Positions 1 to 25,942 of a DNA stretch of 64,000 bases are shown here, in pieces. This DNA is from Ceratodon purpureus (lineage: Eukaryota > Streptophyta > Bryopsida > Pseudoditrichales > Ditrichaceae), in assembly GCA_014871385.1 (NCBI GenBank), contig CM026421.1:18072158-18136157 (forward strand), in the 5' to 3' direction. The notes below the pieces were generated by a model. It had not been told where the DNA came from. It was given only the letters and a program-made list of their open reading frames with translations, and did not search any database. Each line of letters starts with the position of its first letter. Within the stretch, counting starts at the first letter, position 1. The translations under genes and the position numbers were made by a program.

Positions 1-84
1 CACTTACAACCGTATATTGTTAGTAAGGTCCTATTACAAAGTACAATGACATCAATGAATTCAGAAAAAATGAAACTTTATTAC

Positions 85-2537: not shown

Positions 2538-2705
2538 AAAGAAACGACATCTCGCAGTTCGGGAATTGGTGTACACGAGGAGTTTGGCAATTCCTAGAAG
2601 AAGATTTGGCGACGGAGAACCAGCCTTAGGTACTACGAGAAGCCGTGGCGCAGAAAGTAAAAGAAACGACGTCTCAGAGTTTGGGAATGGGCGGAGCACA
2701 CGAGG
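2538..2705. repeat. Diverged 122-bp tandem duplication in the promoter region
   Basis: A block beginning AAAGAAACGAC at 2538 recurs at 2660. It continues through similar sequence (ctcgcag/ctcagag, gggaat, acacgagg) with scattered changes. It lies upstream of the ParB-like gene on its minus strand and is probably a duplicated promoter segment. Each copy has a GACATC/GACGTC core. Confidence 0.6.
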
Positions 2706-3004
2706 TGCTGTGGGAAAACCTAAATCAAAGAATTGGCGACCCAAGAACGGCCCTAGATACTACAGATGGTGACTTCAAACTCCTGAAGTCGGCCCGAATT
2801 GATGGGTGAGGTAACCTATGTCATTTACATGATTACAGCCTACATCGCCCTACCATTAGGTTGTAAAAAATTTCCTCAGCTCAAACACGCGTTATCAATT
2901 CCTTTTTGATCACATTGATAGATTAATCAGCCATTTCATCTTTCACCATTCTCCATTTTAGTGAACATTGATAGAATCAGCAGTCCAATATGTACAGCAC
3001 TAAC

Positions 3005-3271
3005 CTTTGGGATTTTCTTGGCTTTCTTCTTGGGTTCACCTTGTTCGTCTTGTTTTGACCGCCTCTCGTACTGCTTCGTGCTAGTCCTTAGCCTATTCTT
3101 CGCAGAAGACTCTACCTCTGAACTTTGATATTCTAAAACACGCGTTATCCCACTCTTATCAAAACGCTCTGAAGCACTCTTGTTTTTGGCCATTCTACTT
3201 CTTTCTAGGACCCTCTTGGAACTATAACGGAAACTGGTCTTCCTCCTCTTCTTTCTAGTACTGCCTTGCAT
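3005..3271 (-). CDS. Candidate lysine/arginine-rich exon
   Basis: An ATG at 3271 opens 89 codons ending in a good donor (CCCAAAG/GTTAGT, GT at 3004-3003) in phase 0. The residues are highly basic, with clusters such as KKRRK and PKKKAKK that look like nuclear localisation signals. It could be a separate small gene. It could also be a 5' coding exon of the ParB-like gene, because the acceptor at 2314 is in phase 0 too. No domain is recognised. Support is limited to the ORF, its composition and one splice site. Confidence 0.3.
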
Positions 3272-3952
3272 ATCACACTACAGCCATCTATTCTTGCGAT
3301 AATAAACCAAAACACACTATCAGACTGAGACCCGACTCATATACTTGTGACCACTGAGTCCTTCACTTCTAGAAGGGTCCATTGCTTCTATAATCTAATG
3401 CAAAATATTAAGACGCTATTTTAGAGAATAAATAGTAAACCCATTCTATAATCTCACAATCTTTATTAGTGCTCTTACGTTTGACGGCGAAGCCTAATCT
3501 TGTCCAGATCAACGAGTTGAATTTGAGCCATGATATAGTATGAAAGTCAAGTGGACACCAAATTCCAACAGAATTAACTTTTTCTTAATTAGGAGAAACA
3601 AACAGTAAGTGCGCGCCTAAATTCCACTATTATTCCTTACTACATTCCATGATCAAATATGGGGATTGTGGACAAATACCTATCAGGAAGAACACTTACT
3701 AAGAATGATCATGTGGAATATTATCAAGTTGGCAACGATGCAGAATGTGTCAGATCTTCCATGACGGCTCTTTTAATGCTTCTTCTATTTTTTCACTCAC
3801 CTTTACATCCATTTGTCGTTAGAAAATCGTGATCATTAGTTGAGATGAAGAATACTAAACCTTGGATAAATAGAGCAAGAACAATGCACTAATCCTCTCT
3901 CTTCGCATTCTCTAATTCTTGTAGCACCTGCTTAAGGTCTCCACAGAAAAGA
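3272..3952. promoter_or_regulatory. Upstream region of the Mutator-like gene, TATA-like box at 3866-3872
   Basis: About 680 bp without a convincing ORF. ATAAATA at 3866-3872, 81 bp before the ATG, followed by a CT-rich tract at 3893-3915, is a reasonable plant core promoter. I saw no terminal inverted repeat here that matches the region beyond 8376. Confidence 0.4.
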
Positions 3953-6900: not shown

Positions 6901-7665
6901 ACTGCTGCACCGACCTACACCGGAGTTTGGACAAACTATCGCAGGAATACGGTTGAGAGGACAGAGTTTTTCTTCTGCTCCGATGATATTGAGCGCTGCG
7001 TGAAAGGCTCAAGGCGCAAGTGGGTTGCACACTACTCCAAGGACCTCGAAGTGCCGCCGATTCCAGAGGTGTGGCCCGTAAAACTAGGTACTAACCTTAA
7101 GCTCACAGAGATCCTCGCCCTTGAAGCTGCAGGATTCCAACTCCCGCCGAAGAAGCCAGTCTCCCCAAGACGTCTCTTCTCGTCTGCTCCGCCTCCTGCA
7201 AACCTCGCTTCGTTGCCGATTCCAGCAGAGGCTGACCGCTACCCCGGTAAGCGAGATGGGAAGATGGTAAAACGCACAGCAACTCGACCGAACCCGGCGC
7301 AGCGACTCTCCATGGGCTCCTCTCAGTCCCTCAAGGCTCGCCTCCGTTCCATCACCATGATACCTCATCCAGGCCATGGTTGCATCATCGGGCTGGATTC
7401 GGGCGTTGCTCCAAACATCACACAGTACAACATCACCATCACCTCTTACCCGAGTTGCACTTGTCCAGCTTTCAGGAAGACGATGACTAAGTTTCGAGGT
7501 AAGATACAGTTTTCATACTGTAAACATATTTATTACATCCTTTTAAAGGTCTGCAACCGTAATCCGGAGGCCGAGCTTTTCATCCATGCGCCTACCTTTA
7601 GTTTCAACGAATTCAAGCTAGTCCTAGAGAGCGGAATCTTGACACACCCCTTGGCCAAAATCTAG
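3953..7665 (+). CDS. Mutator-like (MULE) transposase or domesticated relative, two exons
   Basis: Exon 1 is 3953-6073 and exon 2 is 6181-7665. The 107-bp intron has GT at 6074 and a T-rich stretch ending TTGCAG at 6180, and joins in phase 0 for 1201 residues. Residues 1-110 are an unrecognised N-terminal region. A SUMO-attachment motif VKIE (126-129) is followed by a SUMO-interacting motif VISLSSDEE (140-148). About residues 282-374 form a Cys-rich WRKY-GCM1/FLYWCH-like finger ending in HNH. The MULE core shows D544 (VYDATY), D593 (MADNAQ), the typical CLFHW at 622-626, and E724 in exon 2 (NLAETVHN). A SWIM finger C1133-x-C1135-x18-C1154-x-H1156 lies near the end. MULE transposases cut and paste DNA in the nucleus. 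The frame is intact. No terminal inverted repeats were found by eye, so it may be a resident or domesticated copy. Confidence 0.82.
6074..6180 (+). other. Intron of the Mutator-like gene
   Basis: A 107-bp, AT-rich GT-AG intron. It separates the second catalytic Asp and the CLFHW motif from the presumed catalytic Glu. Unlike the introns of the two ParB-like genes it holds no palindromes. Confidence 0.8.
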
Positions 7666-7923
7666 GAGGCACTATACTATTATGGTCTCAAGTATGCATA
7701 GTGGACAGTGGTTCATGCGGATACTTAGCTTGAGGTGATTGAATTTTTCCTTGTACTGAGTCAGCAATACAAATCTCGTATTGTCTATTTCAATATAAAG
7801 GTTTTGTCATTCACATTTATTACATTGTGTTACAATAGCATTCAATCAACAAGTGGCATTTGTTATTTATATCAACGCACAATTGGACTGTACTCATTCC
7901 ATGAATACATTTAAATATAGATT

Positions 7924-8376
7924 TTATTCCTTGAACTTAATGCGTTTAGGCATCCCCTTCGCATTTTCAGCACAATCATGAACAACCTCCTGCACTACAG
8001 GACAAGCTACATCGACATTCATTGATTGTTCCCCAATTTGCAGTTGTCGTAGGCGGGGACGTTTCAACAGTGGAATAGCTTCACTCTTTCCACGTAATGC
8101 CTCCCTAGAATAAGTCCCCGGTGGAATCTTCCCGACCTTGGAGTATGCATGAGGTGCCAAAGGAACAACCGGTTGCTCTAGGGGAACTTCGAGAACACCT
8201 GGCTTTTCTACAACCACTATGTCCCCTAGCACGTCTACTTTTACTTCCACGCCGTCATTTCCAGAATGCCCTAAATTACATCCATTCAACTCATCTTCCC
8301 CCTCGACCTCCACATACGGATGAAATGGGCCAACGACATCACCAAGTGAGATAGTGGTTTCCCCGGCAACTTCCAT
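7924..8376 (-). CDS. Small protein of unknown function, convergent with the MULE gene
   Basis: A 150-codon ORF from the ATG at 8376 to a TAA that overlaps an AATAAA motif. The N-terminal half is acidic and rich in Val, Gly and Glu. The C-terminal half has basic clusters (KRPRLRQ, PKRIKFK) that could direct it to the nucleus. It faces the transposase gene tail to tail about 260 bp away. A TATATA stretch near 8500 could serve as promoter on the minus strand. Second genes of this kind occur in some Mutator elements, so it may be an accessory gene of the same element; this is inference. No family is recognised. Confidence 0.45.
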   Translation of the reverse strand: MEVAGETTISLGDVVGPFHPYVEVEGEDELNGCNLGHSGNDGVEVKVDVLGDIVVVEKPGVLEVPLEQPVVPLAPHAYSKVGKIPPGTYSREALRGKSEAIPLLKRPRLRQLQIGEQSMNVDVACPVVQEVVHDCAENAKGMPKRIKFKE

Positions 8377-8930
8377 TTCACAACACGCTCTTCTTGGAAC
8401 TTAATTCAAGAAGAGCACGATCAAAGAGGGTGAGACCTTCTACTGCCACTACTTAAATATCGAGAAGGTAGATGCTCGGCGCCCTTAAATAGTGGGATAT
8501 ATAAGAATGATTAAATATTATACCACTCCATGGCATGAATAGGTTTGTTATGACTGATTTAATTAATTTCTGGACAGGATACCCTAACCATCAATTGAGA
8601 GTGAACTAGAAGCTCTTTCAAATGATAAATATTAAAAAATGAAAAGATTCTAAAATAAGAAGACGAATTATAAAAAATAAGGATATTAAAAAGATAAAAT
8701 ATAAAATATAGAAGATAAAAGATTATAAAAATAAATAAATTAATCGATTAAAATAAATAGGAAATAAAAACACATAAAAGGAAAATTATACATATATAAA
8801 GAGTGCAAAAATAGGACAAAATTATAAAAAAAGTAAAAAGGATAAATGATTAAATGAAACTTAAAAAAAAGGAATTAATGATTAAAAATTTGAAAAAACA
8901 AAAAAGATAAAAGATAATTATATATGTATG

Positions 8931-8932
<2 letters not shown>

Positions 8933-8984
<52 letters not shown>

Positions 8985-8986
8985 TT
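8933..8986. repeat. (TA)n microsatellite
   Basis: An almost pure TA dinucleotide run, interrupted only at its ends. Confidence 0.9.
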
Positions 8987-9079
8987 TAATTCGATGAAGA
9001 AAAAGAGAACAGTGTAAAATAAAATAAAATAATGAATATACAAAAAAGAACAATAAAAATATAAAAGGTTAAGAATTAA

Positions 9080-9236
9080 AAATAAATAAAAAACGTATAA
9101 AAATAAAAAGAATAAATGATAAAAAAGAGTTAAATCAGAAAAGGTTAAAAAAATTAAAATAAATAAAAAACGTATAAAAATAAAAAGAATAAATGATAAA
9201 AAGAGGTTAAATCAGAAAAGGTAAAAAAAATTAAAA
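9080..9236. repeat. Two tandem copies of a 77-bp A-rich unit
   Basis: The landmark cgtataaaaat occurs at 9094 and 9171. The flanking ~77 bp are nearly identical in the two copies. Confidence 0.75.
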
Positions 9237-9542
9237 TAAATAAATAAAAGATAATAAATGCAACTTAAAGATGTGCCTTTATTACCAACCGTATATAGTA
9301 TTTCAAAATAAAAATTCGAAGGGAATAATTTAAATGGAAAAAAAAATAAAAAAATATATACATTAGAAGAAAAACAATAAGACATGAAGAGAACAGTAGA
9401 AATGTAGTAATGTGAAGAAAAATGACCTAGGATTCGAAACTCAGTTAGTCAATCATTACAACATTAAATGTCGGGGCAGAGGACCTAGATTGAAAATTAA
9501 TAAAAATAGTGAATTCAGTCCACGGTCATAGGGTCATATTTA

Positions 9543-12500
9543 TTACCAAAAATAGTAATATTTTTTTAATTTTCTAAAAATATTCTGAGAATATTCGAAT
9601 CTACTAATAATAGTTTTTATTATTAGTAATAATATTACTGTTTTTAGATTTAGTCCTTCATTTTCTGCTCGTAGCTCACCAAATCTCCGCTCGCCGCTCT
9701 CCGCTCGCCGCTCGCCGCACGCATACAAGCTACCCCCCAACAGTTCGATGTAGAATTCCATCCGCAGCTCCCGAGCATTCAGTCGTAGGTGAGCTTCCTT
9801 GTACAATCCGTACACTGTGTAATAGTTTGTATTAGGAGCTTTATAGACTGACTTCACCTTCTTTCTGTCGTCGCTCCTACCTGCACGCACCAGAAATACT
9901 AGGTACAACTCATCCTTCCCTGAGTTTCGAGTAGTATGATCATTAAGGCGTTCGTTCTTCGCAGGGATGTATCTAGATGGAATCACCTCGTATTGTTTCA
10001 TGTACTTCTCTCCGTATGCTATTGCTTGGGCATTTCTATGCTGTGAAGCACTAATCCAAACCCAGACTTCTGGATCGGAGACAGCTGGAGATTTCAGAAG
10101 AAGCAGCTTCTTCATAAACGGCTTAAAGAATGGGTTCTCGACAGTGTCATCCTTGGTGGAATGGCCCGGGGTATCTCTCAAATCCAGTAATGCCAAACCA
10201 AGTCTCGGTTCACTATCATAGCGCCACTGCTGCCCGAACTCCATTTTAACAGCATTGAATAACCGCGTACGAATCCTTCCTTTCAGGGCAACGAAATTAC
10301 CTTTCACCTCCAGGAACTTCTTGAAGAACGGAAAAACATTGGGCCATTTATCTGTCAAATCACGTGACCTCTTAAACATCCCCTTCTTCTCAGCACGAAA
10401 ACCATAAAATCCCTTATCTGGTCGGTCTAGAAGGACATTCAATGTCGCGCTAGAGATACCGTGTTCATCCTTCCACTCGTGCCACTTCTCTCGGTTGATG
10501 GTCATGTCCTTGTTGCAAAGGCCAAGAGATGGCATAATGTCATGGAGTTCTTGGATGCATATCCGCTTCCGCTTCTTCTTGGCCATCCAGTCGCCAGATG
10601 AGTAGTGATGTGGCAACACCGTGCCACGAGTTTTGTGTACGGATACCTTGGGGTATTTATACTGCCAATTCTTTGTCAGCATCAGTAAGTGGGTTACCAA
10701 TGACCTCGTCTCCTCCTCGGTCATGAAGCCCATACCACGGAAGAAGCTGCGTTGGAGCTGAAACGACTTTCCGCCTTTGAAGCCCTTCTTCTGGTTGAAC
10801 CTCTCGCAAGTCTCCGGATCTATCAACTCTCCTGTGCTGTGCTTCGTGATGAACTCCTTCCACAGATTAAAATGATCGTCGGGAGCGGTGATGATAACCA
10901 TCTCGTTCTTAATATCAGCCGGCCCCTGCACTTGCTTTCCGTCCTTGCTGGGGTCGATGTTCTGGAATCGCTTTATAAGCAACTCGACGAATTTCTACAA
11001 AATGCATACTTTTAGATTAGAGATATCATGTTTCATTTATTTATGTATAGAAATAAAATGCACTTGTCCAACTATTTCGCTATACAATCCATCACTACAT
11101 GGAACTGTATCACTATAGGAACCCCTGAACATAACAGATTACAACCATAGTCACCCAGAAACTATTCAATCTGTTGAATCAGACAGTTCTACAATTACAG
11201 AAATCCGTTAACCATACAGCAAACCATAGAAGTAAGAGTTCATTAATTCATAAGAGAAATAACAAATTTAGCTCACTGTGAGCTAAACGCGACCTTTGTA
11301 TTCATTGTAAACTCAAGCAGTTGATTTAACACACAGTGAACCAATTTGAAAATAATCACTCCACACAATCATCTTGAAGAAATCTCGTGTTAGTTTCATG
11401 TTCACTTACCTGATATTTCTTGGTGTTGTATAGAGCCCCATTATGGCGGTTGTTGTCCTTCATATTAGTAGGTTTATCTTGGCTTATCCAGACATTCCGC
11501 GCACTAAGTATGTTAGTACCCCATGTCGGTTGCGCGTGATTAAGATGGTTGCACATATTATAGAACTCCGAGATTCTGACCAGAATCATAGCTTCTTTGC
11601 TCCACACAATGTATGCGTCCCAGTACTCGAGCTCTTTCTTCCTCTTCTCCCCGCAACCTGAAATCTGTAACTCCTGCGAAGCTACTATACTATGTTGACC
11701 ATTGATAATCATAAATTTCCCATCTTTAATCTCCCCCCAAGACTTCGGCTTCTCTGGCAGGAGTTCTAGTTTGTCTGTCACTGGCATCAGACAGACCTTT
11801 TGTCTCTGGTTAATATCTCCCATCCTTACAAGCTCTTCTTTAACCGATTTAACGATCTCTCTCTCTAGGTCTCGGACGATATACTCATCCTTGGCAATGT
11901 GGCACTGTTTCACATTAACTGGGAACGTGGTCTTCATGTCGAAGACATATGCGGATTCACAATCATCCCAGAATGTCTTCTGTATCTCTGTGAATTTCTG
12001 ATAATCCGGCACGTCCTTGTCCTTAGCCTTAGCCTTCGTCTTCTTTGTTTCTTCTGTCTGCGTGAGAACAGATCCAGAGCTCCCTGCCTTCCCTGTCTGC
12101 TTCCGTTTCTTCCTTGAGGTGGAGGCTTCTTGAATATCAGTGGCCGGGCGCTTGCTTCCACGTGAACGCGAAGGTGCTGGAATTGGTGATGCGCGTGGGT
12201 GTTGAATGCTCCCTCTTGATGGAGCAGCGGAGTCCTCGCGCACAACAACTAATGCTGAGCTCTGTAACGGAACTGTGCTGATCTTGGAGGCGGATTTGTC
12301 AGTTATATAGTGAGTAAGTGTCAAGAAAACTCGATTCAGCCTATGCCCAAAGGATACGGCACTCAAGTGTGTTCCATCTTTATTTTTCCAGGCGGTCTTC
12401 TCTAGGTCGAGTATAAGGTCTTCGCATGATGTTCCAATCATGCTTTTAATTAGCGGATCCCCGTCAAATTGAGCATGTTCAGCACCGACTTCGATTACTA

Positions 12501-12858
12501 ACGAGTGGACGTGTGACAAGTCACACTCGGAATCTCGGTCTACAGCACCGACCACGAGTACAATGTACTTCCCATGATGTTCCTCGATAACCTTCAGACG
12601 CTCATGTACAGACAGGTCCAGATACCTAGGACTGTTCTTTTCTTTATGCAAGATTCTCACAAACTTGTGGTACCGGGACACGGCCAGAGACCAACCCTCG
12701 ACTTCGGACTTGAACTGCCACAGGGATCCGTAGGAATTCTCCAACGACGGCTCAATGAAAGGAGTCGCTGGATCGGGGTTCTTGAACCTCTCTAGGAACG
12801 GATCGAGGTGACTCATGTCGTATCCATCTGGCATTAGCACTGGGGTATCCATCGTCAT
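9543..12858 (-). CDS. ParB/sulfiredoxin-like domain protein B, two coding exons
   Basis: Exon 1 is 12858-11410 and ends CAG/GTAAGT. Exon 2 is 10994-9543 and starts after TTGTAG. Both junctions are phase 0, giving about 966 residues. The first ATG lies directly after TTTCAG, implying a leader intron. A classical bipartite nuclear signal (KRP... to ...RKKRK) lies at residues 236-253. From about residue 300 comes a ParB-N-like layout ending in NGQHSIVAS, with G387-Q388-H389 where ParB has its G-x-x-R signature; the terminal Arg is replaced, so catalysis or nucleotide binding is uncertain. Exon 2 encodes a Lys/Arg-rich region without a recognised domain. The last ~60 residues (after a GC-rich CCGCTCG repeat at 9684-9718) look non-coding, so the true 3' end may differ. 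It resembles gene A (85-2313) in layout and in an intron after a Gln codon. Confidence 0.65.
11267..11287. repeat. Single perfect TTTAGCTC-N5-GAGCTAAA palindrome in an intron
   Basis: A perfect copy with ACTGT in the centre. It lies inside the intron 11409-10995 of ParB-like gene B, about 1.7 kb from the main array. Confidence 0.85.
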
Positions 12859-13019
12859 CTGAAATCATTCACACAAAACTTCATTAGTTTAACAAGTTTC
12901 TCGATTATGTATCTCTTGTATCAATCCACATCAATCATCAACATGGAGAATCAGACAATATGACCAGTATGAATGAAATTAGCTTACTGCAATGGAAATA
13001 TTGAAGGTTGACTGCAAGA

Positions 13020-13814
13020 TTTAGCTCACTGTGAGCTAAATTCGTACAAATAAGTATGCATCACTACTCTCGAAGTTCTCTAGCTTTTAGTAGATCTCAA
13101 ATCAAATTGAGCGACTGTTAGTACATAACTTCTTGAGTCAGGCAAAAGTCATCAAAGTTTATCGTACAAGTGCATTGGATTTAGCTCACAGTGAGCTAAA
13201 GAGGTCATAAGGGCATATAAATTAGTTTGTTGAGACCAAACATATCGTTTAGGTTCATATGTTAGCGTACATTGATCTTTGTACGGAAAGTAACACTACG
13301 TTTTAGCTCACAGTGAGCTAAATCCACTAAGTTACACTACGATTTAGCTCACTGTGAGCGAAATCTTCAAAGTTGCACTAGTATTTAGCTCACAGTGAGC
13401 TAAATCCACTACGTTGCACTACGATTTAGCTCACTGTGAGCTAAATCTGTTAAGTTGCACTGGAATTTAGCTCACAGTGAGCTAAATCCACTAAGTTGCA
13501 CTATTATTTAGCTCACTGTGAGCTAAATCTTCAAAGTTGCACTTGAATTTAGCTCACAGTGAGCTAAATCCACTAAGTTGCACTACGATTTAGCTCACTA
13601 TGAGCTAAATCTCCTAAGTTGCACTGGAATTTAGCTCACAGTGAGCTAAATCCACTAAGTTGCACTACGATTTAGCTCACTATGAGCTAAATCTTCTAAG
13701 TTGCACTGGAATTTAGCTCACAGTGAGCTAAATCCACTAAGTTACACTACGATTTAGCTCACTGTGAGCTAAATCTTCTAAGTTTCACTACAATTTTGCT
13801 CACACTGAGCTAAT
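13020..13814. repeat. Palindrome array A: TTTAGCTC-N5-GAGCTAAA, 41-bp register
   Basis: Isolated sites occur at 13020 and 13180. From 13302 to 13794 there are thirteen sites at exactly 41-bp steps (13302, 13343, 13384 and so on). The centre alternates strictly: ACAGT at odd sites, and ACTGT or its variant ACTAT at even sites, so neighbours are mirror images. The 20-bp spacers alternate as well, giving an 82-bp higher-order unit. The last site is degenerate. A 41-bp step is close to four helical turns, which would put all sites on one DNA face. It lies in the presumed leader intron of ParB-like gene B. Confidence 0.96.
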
Positions 13815-15171
13815 TCTTATATCTATGTAAAGAATGTAGGTCCATGGGACCCACAACTAATACAGAATATTGTAAAACAATGCAGAACTTGTGAAAACGT
13901 TACTCTATGAAAACAAATTCTGCAATCCGTATGTAGTAAACATATGCTGTAGTAGTGGGACAGAATTGTATAGAAGAAAAAAACAAGTTGTCTACTTTTT
14001 TAAAACACACGGATAAATCCCTTCAGTTTGATTGTTAGGTATAGAGAGAACAAAAATATGTGAAGTCCAAATTTATAATGACATTACACTCAAATCGATT
14101 CGTAGAAACATAACAGAATTAAATCATTTACATTCACAACAGTCACTGTCCTCAGCAATAAAGTTACCCGAGGAGGAGAATTCATACAAATAACAAATAC
14201 ATATTCATTTCAAAGTTCCTAGAAATTAGCGCATATACTTATGATCCACAAACGACAGAATACTCAACATTCTGAACATCCTAATTTAAGCATTAGATAA
14301 GGCTACCCTTTATCACTGTAGTAAGTTTATTCTATACATATACAAGTTCATATGAAGGTTAACGACAAAGTCTGCAGCAAGTAAAATGCTTACCGCTCTT
14401 CTCTAGCTCTGACGTCTACAGGTCCACGGTAACACACGCCTTGGATTCCTTGAAGATTGCAACCTGCATTACGTTGAGAAAGGAAATGCAACGACTTCAT
14501 CAGCCAACAACAGGGTTCAGTAAACATAGAAGGCACCGAAAATAATAATTATCTAGAACCAACAACGAAATGTTGTGATACCGAAACTAAAAAACAAGAA
14601 AAGAGATGACAGGATCAATGCAACAGCTTACAGGTCTGTAAAATGGGAATTTATCAAGGAGACAACGTCAAAAGAGAGGCTGGAAACCCTGCAGAGGACT
14701 GAAGTAACAAAGTGATATTCAGTTCCACGCAAGAAATATGCATCACGCATAATGCACAAAACCGACATTGTCACACAAACCAAAAGCTTGAAAAACAACT
14801 AACAATTGTCACACAAAAAAACAAGCGTAACAAACAGGTGCAACAAGTGTTTCAGCAAACCGAAGGTTACACAACAAACATACATCGAAGTGTAAATATA
14901 CAAGCTACAACAAGAATTGTAACCAACGACGATGTTACTCTCACCTTACACCCAAACAACAAAGCACCCACAAAGACACACAGTCTCTAGGGAAGTACGA
15001 AAATTCAAGAACAGAATCGAACTCACCAAAACAGGCCGTTTTGTCGACTGAAGCGGCGCGTCCACCTCGTCTCCAGAGATGTCTTGAACTAACAAATAGA
15101 AAAACAACAAGGTGGACGTTGAAACTGCACACAAAACTCGATCAGAGTAGATGAAACCTAGGGTTCGAGGG

Positions 15172-15195
15172 CTAAATTCGCTGTGATCTAAATTT
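15172..15195. repeat. Degenerate palindrome relic near gene B promoter
   Basis: GCTAAATTCGCTGTGATCTAAA resembles a site of the TTTAGCTC family with several changes. It is isolated, between the arrays upstream of genes B and the DUF7869-like gene. Confidence 0.4.
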
Positions 15196-15600
15196 TAGAA
15201 AACGTAGAGAGCCGACGGCGCTTGCAACTATCACCAACAACTACCCTGTAACAAAACAAAACTGGAGTACTACAACTACAACAAAGTCTAGAAGAAACCA
15301 CCTAATCGACAGTATGATCTAGAAACCCTAAATGCGAACCAGGTAGCGTATCGCGATTACAACCCAGGCACGCCATGTCTCCATATTGAAAGAGACGACG
15401 AAGGAAGCTCACGAGGGAAGAAGGACGCGGGAGTTCGGAAGATCATGTCGTGGGCTGTTCACGAAGTGATTTCGTGGGCAGCCCTGCAAACGAATGGCGG
15501 CTGCGGGCAGGAACCCTAGCCATAGAGGGCATGCCACGTGCCATTGACGTAGTTCTTCTGAGCCCTCATTAATGACTCATCTCGGTTATAAGGTGACTAC

Positions 15601-15949
15601 TCACCATAATTATACATATTTTTTTTTTTTTTTAATTTGAACATGTGCCATATATTATATTTATTTTTAAAATTTAGAATGACTTTAAAAAATCAATTAA
15701 ATTGGGAACCTCTTAAATAGCATGCATTAAATGAATTATTTTTGTGACAGTTAATGAACGTACTTTTCTTATAAAAATGAAATTTTAACTAAAATATGAA
15801 CTTGTATACTCTACTAACAAAAAAAGGCTATATAATGCTATAATTACGGTTATTCTACTTTTTTCAACACTTTAAGCTAAAATGTTTGCAATACTTTACT
15901 TATTCACACAATTAAATAAATAAAAACTAATAATATTTAAAATTCAATC
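15601..15949. other. AT-rich intergenic DNA
   Basis: A T run at 15620-15633 and otherwise featureless AT-rich sequence. No gene seen. Confidence 0.6.
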
Positions 15950-16492
15950 GAAGAAGAGTAGAAGAATAAAAAGCGAAAAAGAGGAGATAGATAGGGAGAG
16001 GAATAGAAGGATGAAAAACCAACGGAAAATATGGATGACCAATAAAGGAATAAAAAAGATGAAATGATAGAATAGGAGACCAATAAAATATTAAGAAAAT
16101 ATTAATATTAGAAAATCAATGGTGAAGAATAGAAGAATTCAAATAAATTTAAAAAAATTGAGATAGATAGGGAGGGGAATAGAAGGATGAAAAAACAACG
16201 GAAAGGATGGATGACCAATAAAGGAATAAAAAAGGTTAAAGGATAGAATAGAAGACCAATAAAATATTAAGAAAATAATACTATTTGGAAATCAATGGTA
16301 GAAGAATAGAAGAACAAAAAAAACAAAAATAAAAAAAAAGATATATAGAGAGGCGAATAGAAGGATGAAAAACCAACGGAAAGGAGGGATGACCAATAAA
16401 GGGATAAAAAAGGTAAAAGGATAGAATAGGAGACCAATAAAATATTAAGAAAATAATACTATTTGGAAATCAATGGTAGAAGAATACAAGAA

Positions 16493-16527
<35 letters not shown>

Positions 16528-17360
16528 TATATAGAGAGGCGAATAGAAGGATGAAAAACCAACGGAAAGGAGGGATGACCAATAAAGGGATAAAAAAGGT
16601 AAAAGGATAGAATAGGAGACCAATAAAATATTAAGAAAATATTAATATTAGAAAATCAATGGTGAAGAATAGAAGAATTCAAATAAATTTTAAAAAATTG
16701 AGATAGATAGGGAGGGGAATAGAAGGATGAAAAACCAACGTTAAGGAGGGATGACCAATAAAGGGATAAAAAAGGTAAAAGGATAGAATAGGAGACCAAT
16801 AAAATATTAAGAAAATATAGAAGGATGAAAAATTGAGGGAGTGGTTGGATGACCACTTAGAGGATAAAAAAGGAAAACACATAGAATAGAAGACCAATAA
16901 AACTATAAGAAAATACAATTATTTAAAAATCGATGGAAGAAGAAGAGGAGTAAAATAAAAATATCAAATAAAAAAAAACTAGTTAAGGAGAGGAATATAA
17001 AGATGAAAACATAATGGAAACGGTGGATGACCACTCAAAGAATCAAGAAGGAAAATATAAAGAATAGAAGACCAATAAAACGACTAGAAAATAGTAAAAT
17101 TTAAAAATCATTTGAAGAATAAAAAGAAAGGGATGAAATAAAGAGAAAAAGAAATAGAAGGATGGAAAACTAAGAGAAAGGATGGATGACCAATAGAAGA
17201 ATAAAAATGTAGGAGGATAGAATAGAAGACCAATAAAATATTTAGAAAATGATAATTGTAAAATGGTCAATGGAAGGATAACAAGATTAGAAAAGGCTGA
17301 AACGGTGAGAGAGAGGTAGAGAAGGATGAAAAATTGTGAGTCGGGAAGGATGACTAGTGG
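15950..17360. repeat. Minisatellite of ~178-bp units, decaying to the right
   Basis: The landmark GATGACC recurs at about 16033, 16210, 16388, 16574, 16750, 16849, 17026, 17184, and as gatgact at 17349. Steps are 176-178 bp in the first part (186 where an A-run of about 30 has expanded at 16494-16525), then irregular. Units share gagatagatagggag, aatagaaggatgaaaa and ccaataaaatattaag. Minus-strand ORFs here are low-complexity by-products. Confidence 0.85.
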
Positions 17361-19500
17361 ACCACAAAAATAAAGAGATATACTACAAAGGATCCCAATC
17401 GCAAAATAGAAAGAGAATAGGATAGAATAGATGCCCAATATAATAATTAAAGTGAATTTAAAAAAATAAAAATAAAATAAATGGAAGAATAGTAGACGAA
17501 AAAAATTTGATAAAATAGAGAGGGAGAGGAATGGAATGTAAGGTTGGATGACTCATGTAAGAACAACTGAAAGAGAGGAAACTATAATCGATGACCAAGG
17601 GATTAATAAATTTAGGATAATGGAATACAATAGATGACTAATAAAATAAAAAATAAAATAAAAAAGGAAGAGATTATAAGAATAAATACTTAATAAAATA
17701 GGGTGAGAGACGAATAGAATAATGATAAAGAATTCGACACAAGTGATGACCAAAAATTCAATAAAAGAATTGCAAAAATTAAACAACGAATATTAACCGG
17801 AAAATACAATTTTTGTAGGATTAAACGAGGAACTTATGAAATAAGCATAGATATTATATTTTAAGGATTATGTTCATGATTTATTGAGCAAAGGTTTCAC
17901 TAACATGGAAATAATTAACTAACTATGGGATTCCCTGTTGTAAAAATGGAATAAATGACTTTAGGCACTGTGTGTAACCTTCGCAAGCAAAATTTTTGGA
18001 AAACAAATTCGGATCAACGTCTTAGATGAAAATGTAATGATGTTTATTTCTAATTCTTATCGTAATGAATTGCACAATTCTCTTATGCCCTGTCCTTTCA
18101 TATACAATATAATAATATTCATAAAAATTATACAAGAAATTTCACAATTAAAATAGGAAATGAAGAAGTACTAGGAATTTGAACTTGTATAAGTAGTTAT
18201 AAATTCCATCAATATTAGAAAAAATTAGACTTACTATCAAGAGCAAGAGCAGTGTCATGGTACGTGTCCAAACGAGAACATTTCGCATATCTATCGAAAA
18301 AATACGGCACTTCCATGCAATATGTTATAATTTATAGATTATATATACTTTATATATTCAGAAGGCACGCGTAGTATACAGTATTGTAAATTTATGTATG
18401 AACTAATCTCTGTAACATGAAAATTGAATGAAACAAAGTCAATTAACAAAAGAATATCTTCACCCAAAAAAGTTGAAGACTTTTTTTTTACCATGCACTA
18501 TAATCTGTAAATGACGAGCGTAACAGGTATAGGGTACAAGATATAGGACCTAGGGTATAGGGTAACTAGGGTTTAGGGTCTAAGGTCGGGGTTCAGGGTT
18601 TTGGGGCGTTGATGCATTTCATCAATACAGCTGTAATCTATTGTTTTCTGTAGATTTAAATGGAATATGTGTGTACTGACCTCGTCTACCCTATTGCTCT
18701 GTCTGTTCATATTCATGAGGTTTGCCACATGTAGTGTGTTAAATGATTATTCACGTATCACATATTATGTAAACTAACACATTAGTCATGGTTATATTAT
18801 AATTATTTCCCATAATAACGATGAATTGAAATTGTGGTTATAAACATTTAAGTTTGGTAGAAGTGGAACGGTACTAACTTTGTTATATTTGCTTGCAATG
18901 TAAAGTATCGAATAAACCGTAATGGATCTCTAACTTCTTAGGAAGAAATATTTTAGAATTTTGTTTTTTTGTAAAAAATAAAATGACTTTAATTTTAAAC
19001 GTGGTTAATTTCTTGAAATTATTTAATTCCATTCATGTTCCCTTTTATTAATAGTTCAATTATTTTTGAATCTTTTGGAAATCCTATATCAAAGAGTATC
19101 GTATTTTTTCCCCTGGATTTTCCCACAGTATTATTTTATTATCTAGCAGTAATTGCAACATGATCTTTTATTTTTATACAAGTTAATCATTTAGACCTCT
19201 ATAGTTCGAGTATGTGATGTTTTAGGCATCGACGGTTTATAATACAACTAATAGAGATCCACAGAAACGTTTCCCAGGTTCATCATATTATTTCCCGCCA
19301 ACATACAACAGATCCATCGTTTCCCCATAACTAATTTGCTATCTAAACAGATCCGTAGTGACTTATTTGTCATAGTATCTTGACCTCACAAGTTCCCCAC
19401 TTTAAAGAGCATAAACCAAGAAGGTCATTATGTCATGAATGCAAAATTAGGCCGGATCTACTAATAAGAACCTCACATCACGAAAGTCTCTCGCAGCACA
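17361..19500. other. AT-rich intergenic DNA without genes
   Basis: More degenerate relatives of the minisatellite reach about 17.75 kb. Beyond that I see no coding region, RNA gene or terminal repeat, apart from the telomere-like stretch at 18.53 kb. Confidence 0.5.
18528..18606 (+). repeat. Degenerate interstitial telomere-like repeat
   Basis: About ten imperfect 6-8 bp units end in AGGG or AGGT, including one exact plant telomere unit TTTAGGG. Units such as ATAGGG, CTAGGG and TCAGGG surround it. Confidence 0.6.
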
Positions 19501-19699
19501 ACAATGCCTCTCTCTTTAATTAGGCTTAGTCGTTGAAAGCATCCATGTTGAGGTTCTGCCTACTCCATAGCGTGGAATAAAGTTGTGCAAAGGTACCGCC
19601 GCCTAAAATGGTGTGGATAACAATGGGAAAGGACAAAGTGGATGTGTGCTGCATCTCCGTAATAGGCCAACAGTGACAATTTGATAAAAGGAATTCTTC

Positions 19700-20036
19700 T
19701 TTCCCGCCTAAATGGGAATTCACGTTGGTTCCCGCTTTTTTCAGAGAGCCGTTTGAGAATGCTTGGTGTCCAGGGTCATCACTTCGTGGGTCCTCAGACT
19801 CTCGCCTTTCTTTCCTGAGACTCTACTTGGAATCCGAGTGACGCGGTGTTTTGGTCTTGTAGAATTCTCTTCCTGACTCTGAGATTGCAGATTTCGTAGC
19901 AGCATTCTGTTTGTGTTCTCAGCTTTCAGGCCCCTGGTAGACTGAGATCGAAGTCCCTGGTTACGTCTGTATTGGGTTTGCTGTGCTGATATGAATTGAC
20001 AGTCGTTTCTACAGAGCATCGAGGGACTCCTTATTG
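19700..20036 (+). promoter_or_regulatory. Probable 5' leader exon of the DUF7869-like gene
   Basis: A strong donor TTATTG/GTGAGT lies at 20036/20037. It pairs well with the acceptor TTCTTTCCAG at 21713, giving a 1677-bp intron that contains palindrome array B. The sequence upstream is CT-rich on the plus strand. The exon start is not defined, and no clear TATA box was found. Confidence 0.45.
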
Positions 20037-20452
20037 GTGAGTGTCTATGCATACAGACTTGTTGGTACCGTTTCAAATTCATTCGGTGATTGCCTTTGTG
20101 AATACCTTAGGTTCTGTAATCATTGTATGGAATAGTGTTGGACCTATTTTGGTTTCTGTTTGGTATGTAAGCGTATACCGTAGGTTGTAATGATCTGGAT
20201 TATAAATCAGATTCAAGGGTCTTGACAGAATTAGTGAGTGTACCCAATTGCTTTCAGAATTAATGTACGAATTCGTTGATTAAATTCCTAAATTTTCGGG
20301 AAATTCATTACGAGTTTTACTAACATATAACTTTCAATGCTGAATTCTTCTTATTGTATTTGACATATATATGTATTGCTTCTTGCGATCTAAGTTTGAC
20401 ACACTAGGCGCTGAATCTATGTATACGAAAGTGGTGTTTCCGCTGAATTGGA

Positions 20453-20893
20453 GTTCGTTTACAGTGGGCTAAATTGGAATTAGCTCACAATGAGCTAAAT
20501 TGGACTTAGCTCACTGTGAGCTAAATTGGACTTAGCTCACTGTGAGCTAAATTGGACTTAGCTCACTGTGAGCTAAATTCGACTTAGCTCACCGTGAGCT
20601 AAATTCGGGTGAACTCACTTTGAGCTAAATTAGACTTAGCTCACTGTGAGCTAAATTGGACTTAGCTCACTGTGAGCTAAATTCGACTTAGCTCACCGTG
20701 AGCTAAATTCGGCTGAACTCACTTTGAGCTAAATTAGACTTAGCTCACTGTGAGCTAAATTAAACTTAGCTCACTGTGAGCTATGTTGCATTTAGCTCAC
20801 TTTGAGCCAAATCTGGCATATCTCAGAGATAGCTCAATTTCATTTACCTCACAGTGAGTTAACTTTGATTTAGCTCACTGTGAGCTAATTTGG
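20453..20893. repeat. Palindrome array B: same core, 26-bp register
   Basis: About sixteen sites with the form CTTAGCTC-ACTGT-GAGCTAAA follow at 26-bp steps (20479, 20505, 20531, 20557, 20583 and so on), with degenerate ends. Sites with ACCGT centres and sites reading GAACTCACTTTGAGC recur every fourth unit, giving a 104-bp higher-order repeat. Spacers are five to seven bp and unrelated to those of array A. It lies in the presumed leader intron of the DUF7869-like gene. Confidence 0.95.
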
Positions 20894-21206
20894 AGTAGAC
20901 TAAGAGTATTAGGATATGACTGAGGCAGTTAACGAAGACATGCAAATTGGATTATAATATGCTGTGTTTATGGTAAAACAAAAGTCAAGTACCCTGTGAT
21001 ACACTACGGTTCAGTATATACAAAGAAGATACTGCAAATAATCAATTAAGATGAGTTCCCAAATAAATTGTATTGCACGCCAACCCACAATAAATTAGGT
21101 GGGAGGAAGAAGTATATGTTAATAGAAGAAACTGCTAAATATGAGATTGAATGTGTTTTTTAAACGTGTAGTCAGACGTCATCTGGTCGTAGTGATTTTA
21201 ATTAAA

Positions 21207-21276
21207 CTTAGCTCATAGTGAGCTAAATGAATTTAGTTCATAGTGAGCTAATTTGAGACTAGCTTATTGTGAGCCA
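21207..21276. repeat. Three degenerate palindromes
   Basis: Sites at about 21207, 21232 and 21257 have ATAGT or ATTGT centres and one or more arm changes. The step is about 25 bp, as in array B. Confidence 0.7.
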
Positions 21277-21489
21277 AGTAATCGTTCGCCTATTCCTGTT
21301 ATCTTTCAATTCAACAACAGTAAGCTCTCAACACCTTTAGTCAATACGGGATAATGGTAATCTAACATACAGGGAACATGATACCTGGATTGAAGATTGT
21401 TCATTAAGTTTTAGTAATTGGGTGAATAAGCTACATACATGAGCAGTCGACTATTATTGTATTTTTAAACCTCCATGAGAAGTACAGAA

Positions 21490-21510
21490 TTTAGCTCACA
21501 GTGAGCTAAA
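21490..21510. repeat. Single perfect palindrome 204 bp before the main exon
   Basis: A perfect TTTAGCTC-ACAGT-GAGCTAAA in the leader intron of the DUF7869-like gene, separate from array B. Confidence 0.85.
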
Positions 21511-21747
21511 TTATATATGTTCAAATGTACGCGAATGATATTGTATGCTTGCATTCTCTGCTGTGATTTTTAGTAACACAATATATGGAAGTTGTAGACT
21601 CTGTAGTAATCAATATATTAAGTTTAACCAAAGCGAGAAGTATATATTAAGTTTGTAAGCTCCTGAGACTTATTTACTGCCTCTAACCCCTTCGTGATAT
21701 TAATTCTTTCCAGGTTTCGAAGAGCGTACCTGGTATCTCATTCTCGA

Positions 21748-24567
21748 ATGGAGTCATTCTCAGGCGCTGACGAGTTTCTGGCACCACAGTTTCCAACCTT
21801 ACCGGACGATGTCGTTACTTGCGAAGGATTGCCTCGGTCGTCTTGGATCACAAAAGCTGTTACGCTAGTGAACGAGTATGGCTCTATTGTTGCCAAAGGA
21901 ATTTGCCACAGCATCGACTCAGACCTTGTCATCGGAAGTGATGGAGCTCCGCTTGGAGATGATCAAGTAGCTGTTCAGATTGCAGAGTCCTTGTGTGAAG
22001 ATGATGTACCATCGGAATGGATGTTTTCATTACGTGCTTGGCATATCCGGAATGTATTCGTAAATGGTGCATCTCTCTACGATCACGATCAAGTGGCTAT
22101 CTACAATGCTGCTGTTTCTTCAATGCGGGGGAGGAAGCGTGTAGGAGTACGACCTTATGATAGTTCCAGAGTCCAGAGGGTTCCAAATCACCTTCCGAAG
22201 GCAGAGATGAAGTTATCTCCTGAGGCTATCGCTTCTGTATCCAGCGAAAGATGTTGTAGGTTGAACTGTGTTCAGTTTTATCCACGACTAAAGATTGAAG
22301 CCCTACGAAATCAGTTCTGGAGAGATGGCACTGTGTACTTCAAGAAGCACACTCAACTTGATGTTCATAGGCAAATGCACACTGACGTCGCTGGGAATCG
22401 CGTCGTTACACTTGAAGGTATTGATGTATGTCAAGTTGCTTGGTACAAGATACTTGGAGTATCGCGCACTAGCTTTTTCCGGCACCAAAGCCTTGCTGAT
22501 GAAGGTGTAAGAGCAGAGCATCATGGAAATCTGGGGACTAAAAAGCCTCGTACTTACACCGTTCAAGCAAAAGCAACCTTGGGTTGTTTGCTTGAGAGCG
22601 TCGCAGATCAGATGCCCCATAGATCAAGAACCTTGGAGAATGGAGAGAAGGTAGTGTCAATGGCCCTTCCACCATCATGGAAATGGAAAGACTCTTTGCC
22701 CCAAGTGAATATAGTGAACGGTCAACTGGGGCTGCGGAAGGTTTCCCTCTCAGGGATCAGCAATATCAGGCGGCGATCCTTCCCAGAGTTTTCGGTGAAG
22801 AGACCAGGAGATAATTTTGCACGTTGCGGTACATGTGATAAACTAAAATCGTTGAAATTAGCCAGTACGAAAGGTTCAAGAGCTGCGGATTTATGGGGAA
22901 TGAAACTCCAGGAACACCTCGCTGCGCAACGAGCGCACAGAGAGTTGTACTACGCGAATCGATACAACTCTATCACAGAGCCTGACAATGTTGTCACTGT
23001 GATTCATGATAAAATGGATCACTCCAAAACTGCGTCCCCTGCGTACTCTCACAAGAACAAGGCCATTGATTCCTATTTTAAGTTACCGTTGCAAGTGACT
23101 GGAATGATTGCTCACGGACATGGTGATATACGATATGCTCACTATGGTTTGGATATATATCCTAGTGACTCAAATCACACCGTAGGGAGTCTTGCTAAGC
23201 TCTTACGTGACCTTGAGTCTACACCAATGGCATGTTCAGGAGAGTTGTTTTCTGGTGATCGCATTGCACCTCTCTTTGAGGCCGTTTTGAATGGAGCCGA
23301 CATTTGCAGGTCATCCCTTCCTCCGATTCCAAGAACAGTTGTCCCAGCAAAGCCTCTTCCTCCAATTCTAAATGTCCAGCTAGACAATGCCTGCTCTGAT
23401 AATAAAAACAGATATATGTTGTGTTTTTTTTCTCTTCTTGTGGCTCGAGGTATCTTTCGAGAGGTTTATGTGAACTTCATGCTTGTTGGACATACGCATG
23501 ATGATATTGATGCTCTGTTTGGGCGTTGGAGTATGAAGCTTAGGAAAAATGACTACCCTACGATACCTTTGCTCATGAAATCGTTTATGGATGCCGAAAC
23601 GGAGCCTGTTATCCCTCACTTTATTGAAGAAGTGCCAGATTTCAAAGGATTTATTGAAGGTCATATTGCTTCAGGAGATGAGGCTTTGGAAGGACATACC
23701 AATGCACAACAATTCAAATTCTATAAACATGCCAATGGATGGCCGATGATGCAGTATAAGATTGTTTGCACCGATAGTGACTGGCTTCCAAAGGAGAATG
23801 GTGGCATTAAGTTGTGGAGTGAGCTTGCTGATGGAAGGCCAAGCTTGCCATTAGGGAGTCCAAATGCATTACCAGCGCAGTGCATGAAGAACAAGGACGA
23901 GATCGTTAGGGGAATCGGAGGTTTTATCAATCATTGGGATACCATGGCCAATGAAGACTTGTCAGGCGAGTTTCGGAGAAGAAATGAAGGGATTTCACAG
24001 TATTGGAAGGGGGTGCATCAGGCACTTACAGAGGATATTATATCGCCTTCTACGTTGAGGGATGGGTTCTGGCCGCTATCTCGGTTTGCTCCGTCAGCTG
24101 AAGATGAGTACCTTGATGACGGCACCGTGCGTGACGCTTTCGGTATAGATGAGCCCTTCATCGGGCAACACCGTGATAGACCAAACGCATCATTTCGGGT
24201 GGCTCGTGATGTTTTTGAGGGATATTTTCTTATTGTACGCCCTGCTGATGATGATTCACGACCCTTCTGGGTAGCTAGAGCAATGTCGAATCCTTTTGAA
24301 GACTCAATTAATCATCCCAATGCTATTAAAGTCCAGTACTGGAAACCAGTGTCTACCAAGGTAGATGTCGTAGAGTGTTATGTCGGATGGAACTCTGGAA
24401 GATCCTTCCTATGGGAAGCAGATGAGGATCACACCCCTGAGTGGATTGATACCGATTCACTTATGACTAGTTGGAAATCAAAAATTAAACCTGGGAATCT
24501 AAATCCAAAAGTTCGCATTCCTGTACTTCAAAGAAATGTTATCTCAAATAGTTTGGTGAGGTTCTAG
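21748..24567 (+). CDS. DUF7869-like transposase-like protein, 939 residues
   Basis: I start at the ATG at 21748, the first in an exon that begins after TTCTTTCCAG (21713). The reading frame also extends upstream, but only across the presumed intron end. The 939-residue protein is a single intact exon. It has an early Cys motif (C169-C170-x3-C174), a later CxxC (C360, C363), and a core with spaced acidic residues: D421 and D424 (HDKMDHSKT), D546 (VQLDNACSD), and H582-T-H-D585-D586-x-D588. This order is what I recall of the DUF7869 family, thought to have an RNase H-like fold related to transposases; that is recollection, not a search. The C-terminal ~120 residues are Trp-rich and may be a beta-rich reader module. 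The gene is flanked by palindrome arrays B and C that share their core with gene B. Confidence 0.7.
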   Translation: MESFSGADEFLAPQFPTLPDDVVTCEGLPRSSWITKAVTLVNEYGSIVAKGICHSIDSDLVIGSDGAPLGDDQVAVQIAESLCEDDVPSEWMFSLRAWHIRNVFVNGASLYDHDQVAIYNAAVSSMRGRKRVGVRPYDSSRVQRVPNHLPKAEMKLSPEAIASVSSERCCRLNCVQFYPRLKIEALRNQFWRDGTVYFKKHTQLDVHRQMHTDVAGNRVVTLEGIDVCQVAWYKILGVSRTSFFRHQSLADEGVRAEHHGNLGTKKPRTYTVQAKATLGCLLESVADQMPHRSRTLENGEKVVSMALPPSWKWKDSLPQVNIVNGQLGLRKVSLSGISNIRRRSFPEFSVKRPGDNFARCGTCDKLKSLKLASTKGSRAADLWGMKLQEHLAAQRAHRELYYANRYNSITEPDNVVTVIHDKMDHSKTASPAYSHKNKAIDSYFKLPLQVTGMIAHGHGDIRYAHYGLDIYPSDSNHTVGSLAKLLRDLESTPMACSGELFSGDRIAPLFEAVLNGADICRSSLPPIPRTVVPAKPLPPILNVQLDNACSDNKNRYMLCFFSLLVARGIFREVYVNFMLVGHTHDDIDALFGRWSMKLRKNDYPTIPLLMKSFMDAETEPVIPHFIEEVPDFKGFIEGHIASGDEALEGHTNAQQFKFYKHANGWPMMQYKIVCTDSDWLPKENGGIKLWSELADGRPSLPLGSPNALPAQCMKNKDEIVRGIGGFINHWDTMANEDLSGEFRRRNEGISQYWKGVHQALTEDIISPSTLRDGFWPLSRFAPSAEDEYLDDGTVRDAFGIDEPFIGQHRDRPNASFRVARDVFEGYFLIVRPADDDSRPFWVARAMSNPFEDSINHPNAIKVQYWKPVSTKVDVVECYVGWNSGRSFLWEADEDHTPEWIDTDSLMTSWKSKIKPGNLNPKVRIPVLQRNVISNSLVRF

Positions 24568-24586
24568 ACCCTTGAAGTATAATTCA

Positions 24587-25200
24587 TTTAGCTCGATGTG
24601 AGCTAAATACTACGGTGCTCTGAAGTTTAAGTATAATTCATTTAGCTTGATGTGAGCTAAATACTGCAGTTCTAGGAAGTTCAAATAGAATTCATTTAGC
24701 TTGATGTGAGCTAGATACTACGGTGATATGAAGTTAAAATATAAATCATTTAGCTCGATGTGAGCTAAATACTTCGGTGCTCTGAAGATTAAGTATAATT
24801 CATTTAGCTTGATGTGAGCTAAATACTGCAGTGCTCTGAAGGTAAAGTATAAATCATTTAGCTTGATGTGAGCTAAATACTACGGTGCTCTGAAGTTTAA
24901 GTACAGTTCATTTAGCTTGATGTGAGCTAAATACTGCAGTGCTCTGAAGGTAAAGTATAATTCATTTAGCTTGATGTGAGCTAAATACTACGGTGCTCTG
25001 AAGTTGAAGTACAATTCATTTAGCTTGATGTGAGCTAAATACTGCAGTTCTAGGTAGTTAAAGTATAATTCATTTAGCTTGATGTGAGCAAAATACTATT
25101 GTGCTATGAGTTAAAGTTTACTTCATTTAGCTAGATGTGAGCTAAGAACTACGGTGCTATGAAGTTTAAGTATCTTTATTTAAGCTTGATATGAGCTGAA
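24587..25200. repeat. Palindrome array C: 54-bp register just after the stop codon
   Basis: Twelve sites start 20 bp after the stop codon at 24567. The first ten are at exactly 54-bp steps (24587, 24641, 24695 up to 25073); the last two are shifted and degenerate. The arms match arrays A and B, but the centre is GATGT and the left arm usually ends in T (TTTAGCTT). Spacers mostly alternate between ACTACGG and ACTGCAG forms, suggesting a 108-bp higher-order unit. It is probably in the 3' untranslated region. Confidence 0.95.
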
Positions 25201-25880
25201 TCGTAGGACAACTTCTTTGTATAATGAAGTTTGTCATATTAGGAGGATAAGTCGTTACTATTTGTATGTTGTAAACGTTATTGGATTATATTATGTGCAC
25301 TATGATTTTTAGACAAACTGCTGTGATATGAGGGCAGAAACTGTCTAATTTGTACATCATTTTTAAGCTTCAAGGTTGTGAAGTTTAATATTAATTATAA
25401 ATTCCAGACAGTATACTGCTCACATGCAGTTCAAATATGTTGTGTTGTCGTGGAAGACTTTATATTCTCTAATTTTATTATTACAGAGTCATTTCCCATT
25501 CATGATAACATCGTGCAAATTGCCATTCTACATTTGTTGGAATTGTTCTAGCAACAGTCATTATGAGGAATTAGTTGACTCTGAGCTAACCCTGGAACCT
25601 CTCACACTTTACAGTGACATGTATGATATTTTGACATGCTTAAATTGCTTAAATTGCTTAAAATGTCCTATTATGAAGCAATAAGCAACAATAATTTATA
25701 TTGCAACTCCTACTGTATGATGCAATGTGTAAAAAATGGTTGATTAAAAGAACACTGTATGGATTTTTGGTCCCAATATAATGAAAGTCCCATTATAGTT
25801 GATACAATTTTAGGTCTATTTTAAGCACTATATTAATTTGGGACTTCCAAAAGTCCCATTTTAATGAATATGGTGTTCGT
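25201..25880. other. Spacer between palindrome array C and the 5.2-kb tandem array
   Basis: No convincing gene. It holds three short ttgcttaaa repeats near 25640-25670. A perfect inverted repeat GGGACTT-ccaa-AAGTCCC lies at 25840-25857, just left of the array boundary. Confidence 0.5.
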
Positions 25881-25942
25881 TGCTTTGAATCCCACAACGT
25901 ATACTCACAACCCTGAATTGCAGACTTTACCGGCCCCTTCGA

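Follow-up and report, generated by a model that had tools for sequence, protein, structure and literature searches.

A large, apparently autonomous DNA transposon of the moss Ceratodon purpureus with a putative DUF7869 transposase, a ParB-like protein, and palindrome arrays

In the bacterial ParB-parS and KorB systems, palindromic sites are found at several places around the gene of the protein itself. Among eukaryotic DNA transposons, Sola, Chapaev, Academ, and Ginger elements generate target site duplications (TSDs) of 4 bp, and to our knowledge none of them encodes ParB-like proteins or phosphatases of the NIF (NLI interacting factor-like) family. PIF/Harbinger elements combine, between one pair of terminal inverted repeats (TIRs), a transposase and a separate DNA-binding partner, typically a Myb/SANT/MADF protein; their TSD is typically 3 bp, and in zebrafish Harbinger3_DR a Myb-like protein binds a 9-bp subterminal motif and interacts with the transposase (PMC9710019). 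Galileo, of the P superfamily, has tandem repeats inside long TIRs, and these contain multiple sites to which the transposase binds through its THAP domain (PMC3688188). Here, we analyze a stretch of 64,000 nucleotides of the moss Ceratodon purpureus, hereafter the window (C1:18072158-18136157; contig labels C1 to C12 all refer to this genome), which holds part of a mobile element carrying a DUF7869 gene, a divergently oriented ParB-like gene, and arrays of short palindromes. A first-pass annotation of positions 9543 to 25200, made from the sequence alone, had proposed that the two genes form a mobile system linked by shared palindromes.

The moss element resembles PIF/Harbinger in being one TIR element with a transposase and a separate putative DNA-binding partner, and differs in its 4-bp TSD, its ParB-like and NIF modules, its DUF7869 protein, and its length of 21.6 kb. 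Like Galileo, it has tandem repeats with many candidate sites for an element-encoded protein; its sites, however, are 21-bp palindromes located in inferred introns and flanks, and its TIRs are short. With ParB-parS and KorB it shares a predicted ParB N-domain fold and palindromes around the protein's own gene, whereas no ParA-like protein was seen, the nucleotide motif is altered to NGQHS, no helix-turn-helix (HTH) was recognized, and the setting is a eukaryotic transposon. It matches Sola, Chapaev, Academ, and Ginger in TSD length and in its presumed DDE-type transposition; at the level of sequence, Pfam gives only DUF7869.

We hold it reasonably likely that the locus represents a large, apparently autonomous moss transposon in which the DUF7869 protein acts as transposase and the palindromes are bound by a dimer of the ParB-like protein. 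Its mobility, which the first-pass annotation had suspected, follows from TIRs, 4-bp TSDs, and unoccupied target sites. The full copy C6:72.89 comprises 21,625 bp with ends at 72886450 and 72908074, and its 25-bp TIRs are AACATCATATTCATTAAAATGGGAC and GTCCCATTTTAATGAATATGGTGTT. Left and right TIRs agree at 24 of 25 inverted positions (the left end was readable in eight copies including that of the window, the right end in eight), and the right end of copy C6:95.81 scores 22/25 against the TIR. Nine copies were examined for TSDs, and all seven readable at both ends are flanked by duplications of 4 bp: besides the window copy, these are CTAG, CATG, AATT, CTTC, AATA, and TATA. Two of eight compared copies were unreadable at one end (an N at the left end in one, a right end outside the retrieved stretch in the other). 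The rightmost 133 bp of the element have 40 matches in the genome, of which 12 are identical and 39 extend to the final base. Empty sites were established for two insertions. The joined flanks of copy C6:95.81 (240 bp) match 40 genomic places over their full length at 97 to 99% identity, and the insertion site of the window copy has four uninterrupted equivalents in units of a tandem array, which represent natural empty sites. Transposition by cutting at the TIRs and staggered 4-bp insertion is well supported, and so is the view that the DUF7869 and ParB-like genes and the palindromes are parts of one large DNA transposon.

With regard to classification, the 4-bp TSD departs from the 3 bp of PIF/Harbinger and from the duplications of about 8 to 11 bp left by Mutator-like elements (MULEs). 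Among cut-and-paste DNA transposons, the element probably represents a new superfamily. DNA transposons with TIRs are a known kind, and in our literature search, which left most subscription papers out of reach, we found neither an account of a transposon combining DUF7869, ParB-like, NIF, and palindrome components nor the term DUF7869 itself. Judged by that literature, DUF7869 as a presumed transposase family, its association with ParB-like and NIF modules, and the system of palindromes appear new, which is short of proof.

The DUF7869 protein is very probably the one that carries out the transposition. It matches PF25273, the Pfam family DUF7869, named as a domain of unknown function, and its fold is predicted to be of the RNase H/DDE type with conserved acidic residues, of which D421, D546, and D586/D588 are candidates for the catalytic site. 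Its best annotated relative is C. purpureus KC19_VG078600 (96% identity over 82% of the searched region), and at least 12 full-length copies at 99 to 100% identity are present in the genome. In the copy at C6:84405914-84413354, DUF7869 occurs in triplicate tandem, the second and third repeats spanning residues 173 to 939 at 99%. A search of viral contigs with DUF7869 gave no relatives.

The recurrence of the two genes as neighbors was confirmed genome-wide. Scoring 49 of 1772 candidates in the DUF7869 search gave 51 matches in 47 merged loci, and scoring 88 of 575 candidates in the search with ParB exon 1 gave 91 matches in 78 merged loci, all four counts being lower bounds. A ParB-like gene lies within 30 kb of DUF7869 in 43 of the 47 loci, divergently oriented in every case, two of these pairs using one common ParB gene; conversely, a listed DUF7869 gene lies within 30 kb of 44 of the 78 ParB loci. 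The DUF7869 loci without a listed ParB partner in this range are C7:17.36, C12:13.43, C6:83.92, and C6:57.07 (nearest at 41 kb). The DUF7869 and ParB-like genes do belong together, but the proposed two-gene composition had to be rejected, since a third module is present. In the full copy, further exons follow on the same strand to the left of ParB, and one of them matches the NIF phosphatase family (PF03031, E 6.7e-14). The NIF search scored 150 of 856 candidates and gave at least 150 matches, 78 of which entered the pairing count, the omitted 72 being mostly at or below 47% identity; NIF lies behind ParB on the same strand in at least 38 of the 43 pairs, at a distance of 3.6 to 4.9 kb in 36. 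Exons 1-2, 2-3, 3-4, and 4-5 of this region can each be joined at identifiable splice sites of matching phase, which makes one long gene plausible, and the ParB-like and NIF modules are probably expressed as one transcript. The remaining exons have no Pfam match. All exon structures and leader introns were deduced from genomic sequence.

According to structure prediction, the ParB-like protein contains a ParB N-domain fold at about residues 307 to 440 of its exon 1 product. At the level of sequence, neither exon has a significant Pfam match, exon 2 has no Pfam or Protein Data Bank (PDB) sequence match of note, a sequence-profile search of the PDB with this protein returned nothing convincing, and Pfam and NCBIfam searches of 56 ParB-like proteins yielded only families matched by one to three members each. 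Searches of genome contigs and viral contigs for the protein gave no relatives. Where ParB proteins have a GERR-type CTP-binding motif, the moss protein has NGQHS. The exons submitted to Pfam showed no ParA-like domain; the other open reading frames (ORFs) of at least 120 aa in the full copy are low-complexity, antisense, or overlapping, and a scan of these exons may overlook a gene composed of short ones. No Myb/SANT/MADF domain was detected by Pfam in the tested exons, the ParB fold standing in its place. At least 11 full-length ParB-like copies at 98 to 100% identity are present, nine without an internal stop and two with one stop.

The palindromes are real and nonrandom: the window holds 46 matches to TTTAGCTC-N5-GAGCTAAA at up to three mismatches, all within 11267-25200, compared with 0.41 expected by chance (largest count 2 in 100 dinucleotide shuffles). 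Three tandem arrays, A, B, and C, are present (Table 1), for which Tandem Repeats Finder (TRF) gives registers of 41 bp (13294-13813), 26 bp (20442-20894), and 54 bp (24575-25201), as first described. The spacers differ among the arrays. When 12, 16, and 10 units of A, B, and C were compared, the 16 arm positions carried 0.005, 0.078, and 0.025 mismatches per site and the spacers 0.15, 0.21, and 0.15, which bears out the earlier view that the palindrome core is the common element. CRISPR- or TIGR-type guide RNA arrays, where unique spacers separate constant repeats, were rejected, the spacers being alike within each array (0.15 to 0.21 mismatches per site to consensus). The 8-bp-arm form that had been described occurs in all arrays, but the arms of array A extend to 10 bp, giving an odd palindrome of 21 bp (TTTAGCTCACWGTGAGCTAAA), and array C is imperfect: 10 of 16 units of array B pair at 9 of 10 arm positions, and all 12 of array C at only 6 to 8. 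As for location, the reported placement in ParB introns needs refinement: array A precedes the ParB start codon, in an inferred 5' intron, and the intron between coding exons contains only the palindrome at 11267. Palindromes do flank the DUF7869 gene, as described, with array B in its inferred 5' leader intron and array C just 3' of its stop codon.

Beyond the window, the full 21,625-bp copy contains 54 sites with at least 12 of 16 matching positions and its 2,375 bp of flank none, the shuffled expectation being a mean of 1.8 and a maximum of 5 (20 mononucleotide shuffles). Two of these sites overlap the inferred coding blocks, which account for 8,790 of 21,625 bp, and one of the two, in inferred exon 3, is exact; the other 52 fall elsewhere. 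The first 130 bp at the left end contain three exact half-sites. For the best 30 of 91 ParB matches, the sequence within about 1.5 kb of each locus includes one or more exact palindromes, so that the palindromes accompany other copies as well. Array length varies among copies, and those at about 74% ParB identity have fewer palindromes, often spaced at about 84 or 124 bp, which corresponds to twice or three times the 41-bp register. Genome-wide, the pattern has 3532 sites and the reversed control pattern 0. The center GANTC, present in 2293 of the 3532, is the type of a second subfamily at C1:300000-315200, where DUF7869 (about 46%), ParB (28%), and NIF (46%) genes are found together, divergent, with TTTAGCTCGASTCGAGCTAAA arrays. 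A search of viral contigs for the palindrome gave no relatives.

Similar palindromes accompany other lineages. Contigs named as a cyanobacterial metagenome-assembled genome (MAG), AVDCRST_MAG81, which are probably plant contamination, encode a DUF7869 protein at 49% (contig L001) and three ParB-like genes (L004 to L006). On L001, 10 palindromes of the window's class reach 12 or more of 16 positions, versus 0.25 in shuffled sequence, and they are divided evenly, five to each side of the DUF7869 gene. L004 has none of the window's class and four sites of the type TTATCCTCGASTCGAGGATAA, and L005 and L006 have the type TTCAGCTCGASTCGAGCTGAA. The ParB lineage of C. purpureus contig C12 (40% to that of the window) has TTATCC sites too, and it pairs with L004 in a six-row tree (support 82/84, modest given so few rows). 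An inner CTC-N5-GAG is common to all types, and the changes between lineages are symmetrical and matched on both arms, which fits a dimer-bound site or a hairpin. This is as expected if the palindrome evolves together with its protein. Two more distant DUF7869-like sequences (24 to 25% identity), with 1 and 0 palindrome sites, are not above chance; these stretches, L002:5457-6251 and L003:2722-3411, belong to Bacteroidetes MAG contigs, possibly as eukaryotic contamination.

On these grounds, the following mechanism can be envisaged. As a DDE-type transposase, the DUF7869 protein would cleave the DNA at the 25-bp TIRs (AACAYCATATTCATTAAAATGGGAC) and insert the element at staggered 4-bp targets, while the divergent second gene would supply the ParB-like protein followed by an NIF/FCP1-type phosphatase module, probably from one transcript. 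The 21-bp palindromes, 54 in the full copy, would be the cognate sites of an element-encoded dimer. That some protein of the element binds them is a good probability; that the binder is specifically the ParB-like protein, which is the strongest candidate, we put at even chances. Once bound, the ParB-like protein may cover or connect the arrays, which lie in the two inferred leader introns and close to the right end; this would mark element DNA, control both promoters, and help to unite ends and transposase. FCP1-type enzymes generally target the tail of RNA polymerase II, and the phosphatase might, as a guess by analogy, influence transcription of the element.

The best-surviving alternative keeps the same transposon and assigns palindrome binding to DUF7869 itself, the palindromes serving as internal or subterminal sites for end recognition and specificity, and the ParB-like and NIF proteins serving, e.g., in anti-silencing or replication timing. 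It is suggested by the arrays that flank the DUF7869 gene, one of which comes to within about 680 bp of the right end, by the half-sites close to the left end, by the flanking sites of the 49% identity gene, and by the precedent of the Galileo transposase with its multiple sites in tandem repeats (PMC3688188). We nonetheless consider it unlikely, as the most perfect array, A, lies in the ParB leader, about 7 kb from B and far from the ends, and the ParB loci of other lineages have their own matched palindromes, on contigs too short to show whether DUF7869 is also nearby. Less probable again, and in our judgment quite doubtful, is a role as RNA hairpins in introns or untranslated regions, acting in splicing, stability, or small-RNA silencing: self-complementarity, the predominance of noncoding positions, and the matched arm changes suit hairpins, whereas the exact site in exon 3, the half-sites by the left end, and the poor pairing of array C do not. 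Passive, functionless satellite-like repeats expanded in introns would account for tandem arrays with variable unit number and for the decayed-looking spacings of the copies at about 74% identity, but conserved arms with diverged spacers, three arrays differing in spacer and register, matched changes in other lineages, and single sites outside arrays make this very improbable. Segmental duplication of two neighboring host genes, or a host gene cluster, which the resemblance to intron-bearing plant genes and the copies without a listed partner might suggest, was rejected as next to impossible given the precise TIR ends, the TSDs in all seven readable copies, and the unoccupied sites.

The limits first drawn for the window copy require correction at both sides (Table 1). 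The right border had been placed at 25200, and the true end is at 25877. The ParB gene had been thought to reach 9543, but the sequence left of 9739, where the gene is split, belongs to a nested insertion. This insert spans 18,629 bp, is bordered by a 9-bp duplication (AACAGTTCG), has similar, inverted ends rich in GC, and looks MULE-like and foreign to the ParB-like/DUF7869 element. Its ORFs at 3893-6079 and 6157-7665 have no Pfam match. Truncation of the window copy at its left was considered and rejected, since the NIF search located the remaining part beyond the nested insertion: the NIF exon is at C1:18059509 and the left end at C1:18057835, 14.3 kb beyond the window. A search for long inverted repeats inside the window found none because the left end lies outside it. 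The copy aligns to a C6 copy over 9738-25877 and to a C5 copy over 9738-24997, where the fetched C5 sequence stops, and its left flank is the same tandem array as its right flank.

Table 1. Coordinates of the element, its genes, palindromes, and insertion features in the window
Feature	Position	Strand	Basis or remark
DUF7869 gene, 939 aa	21748..24567	+	PF25273, E 7e-45
ParB-like gene, coding exon 1, 483 aa	11410..12858	-	phase-0 donor CAG/GTAAGT after 11410
ParB-like gene, coding exon 2, broken by nested insert	9739..10994	-	alignment to other copies, insert borders
Palindrome array A, 41-bp register, 13 units	13302..13814	.	pattern search, TRF
Single palindromes near array A	11267-11287, 13020-13040, 13180-13200	.	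pattern search
Palindrome array B, 26-bp register, 16 units, one strongly decayed	20479..20889	.	pattern search, TRF
Further palindromes near array B	21207-21227, 21232-21252, 21490-21510	.	pattern search
Palindrome array C, 54-bp register, 12 units, imperfect	24587..25200	.	about 680 bp from right end
Window part of transposon copy, right 16.1 kb	9739..25877	+	aligns 95.7-96.7% with C6 and C5 copies
Right TIR, GTCCCATTTTAATGAATATGGTGTT	25853..25877	+	24/25 inverted match to left ends
Right TSD copy, CGTT	25878..25881	+	left CGTT directly precedes C1:18057835
Unoccupied insertion-site equivalent (CGTT) in 5.2-kb tandem array	49030..49033; also 31071, 54230, 59430	+	sequence comparison
Nested MULE-like insertion (putative), right part	1..9738	+	whole insert C1:18063267-18081895; insert borders, TSD

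A 5.2-kb tandem array at 25878-64000 begins at the right end of the element, with aligned unit pieces 98.7 to 99.7% identical and minus-strand ORFs of 193 to 205 aa, of which the single one tested had no Pfam match at 0.01. A young Ty3/gypsy long terminal repeat (LTR) retrotransposon lies inside it at 32981-45735 (LTRs of 435 bp, 99.5% identity), and the array continues from 45736. Between the divergent genes, a purine-rich tandem repeat of about 176 bp at 15909-17354 varies in length among copies, with strong strand asymmetry around it (GC skew 0.49 at 16001-18000).

For DUF7869, a family whose function was so far unassigned, these findings point to a likely function, that of a transposase whose element has defined ends, and a ParB-like protein is found as a component of a eukaryotic transposon. 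More tentatively, and at somewhat below even odds in our view, the element may represent a new eukaryotic DNA transposon superfamily that has recruited a ParB-like protein, parS-like palindromes, and an FCP1-type phosphatase as a self-marking system, with palindrome and protein coevolving. If this is true, dozens of sites would serve to label the element's DNA, and each lineage would have its matched pair of palindrome and protein. The lineages offer natural protein-site pairs that have seemingly diverged together. Contig C6, which we take as the V sex chromosome, holds 55 of the 78 listed ParB loci, so that the element bears on the growth of moss sex chromosomes. It may have moved recently, and it is a possible tool for moss genetics.

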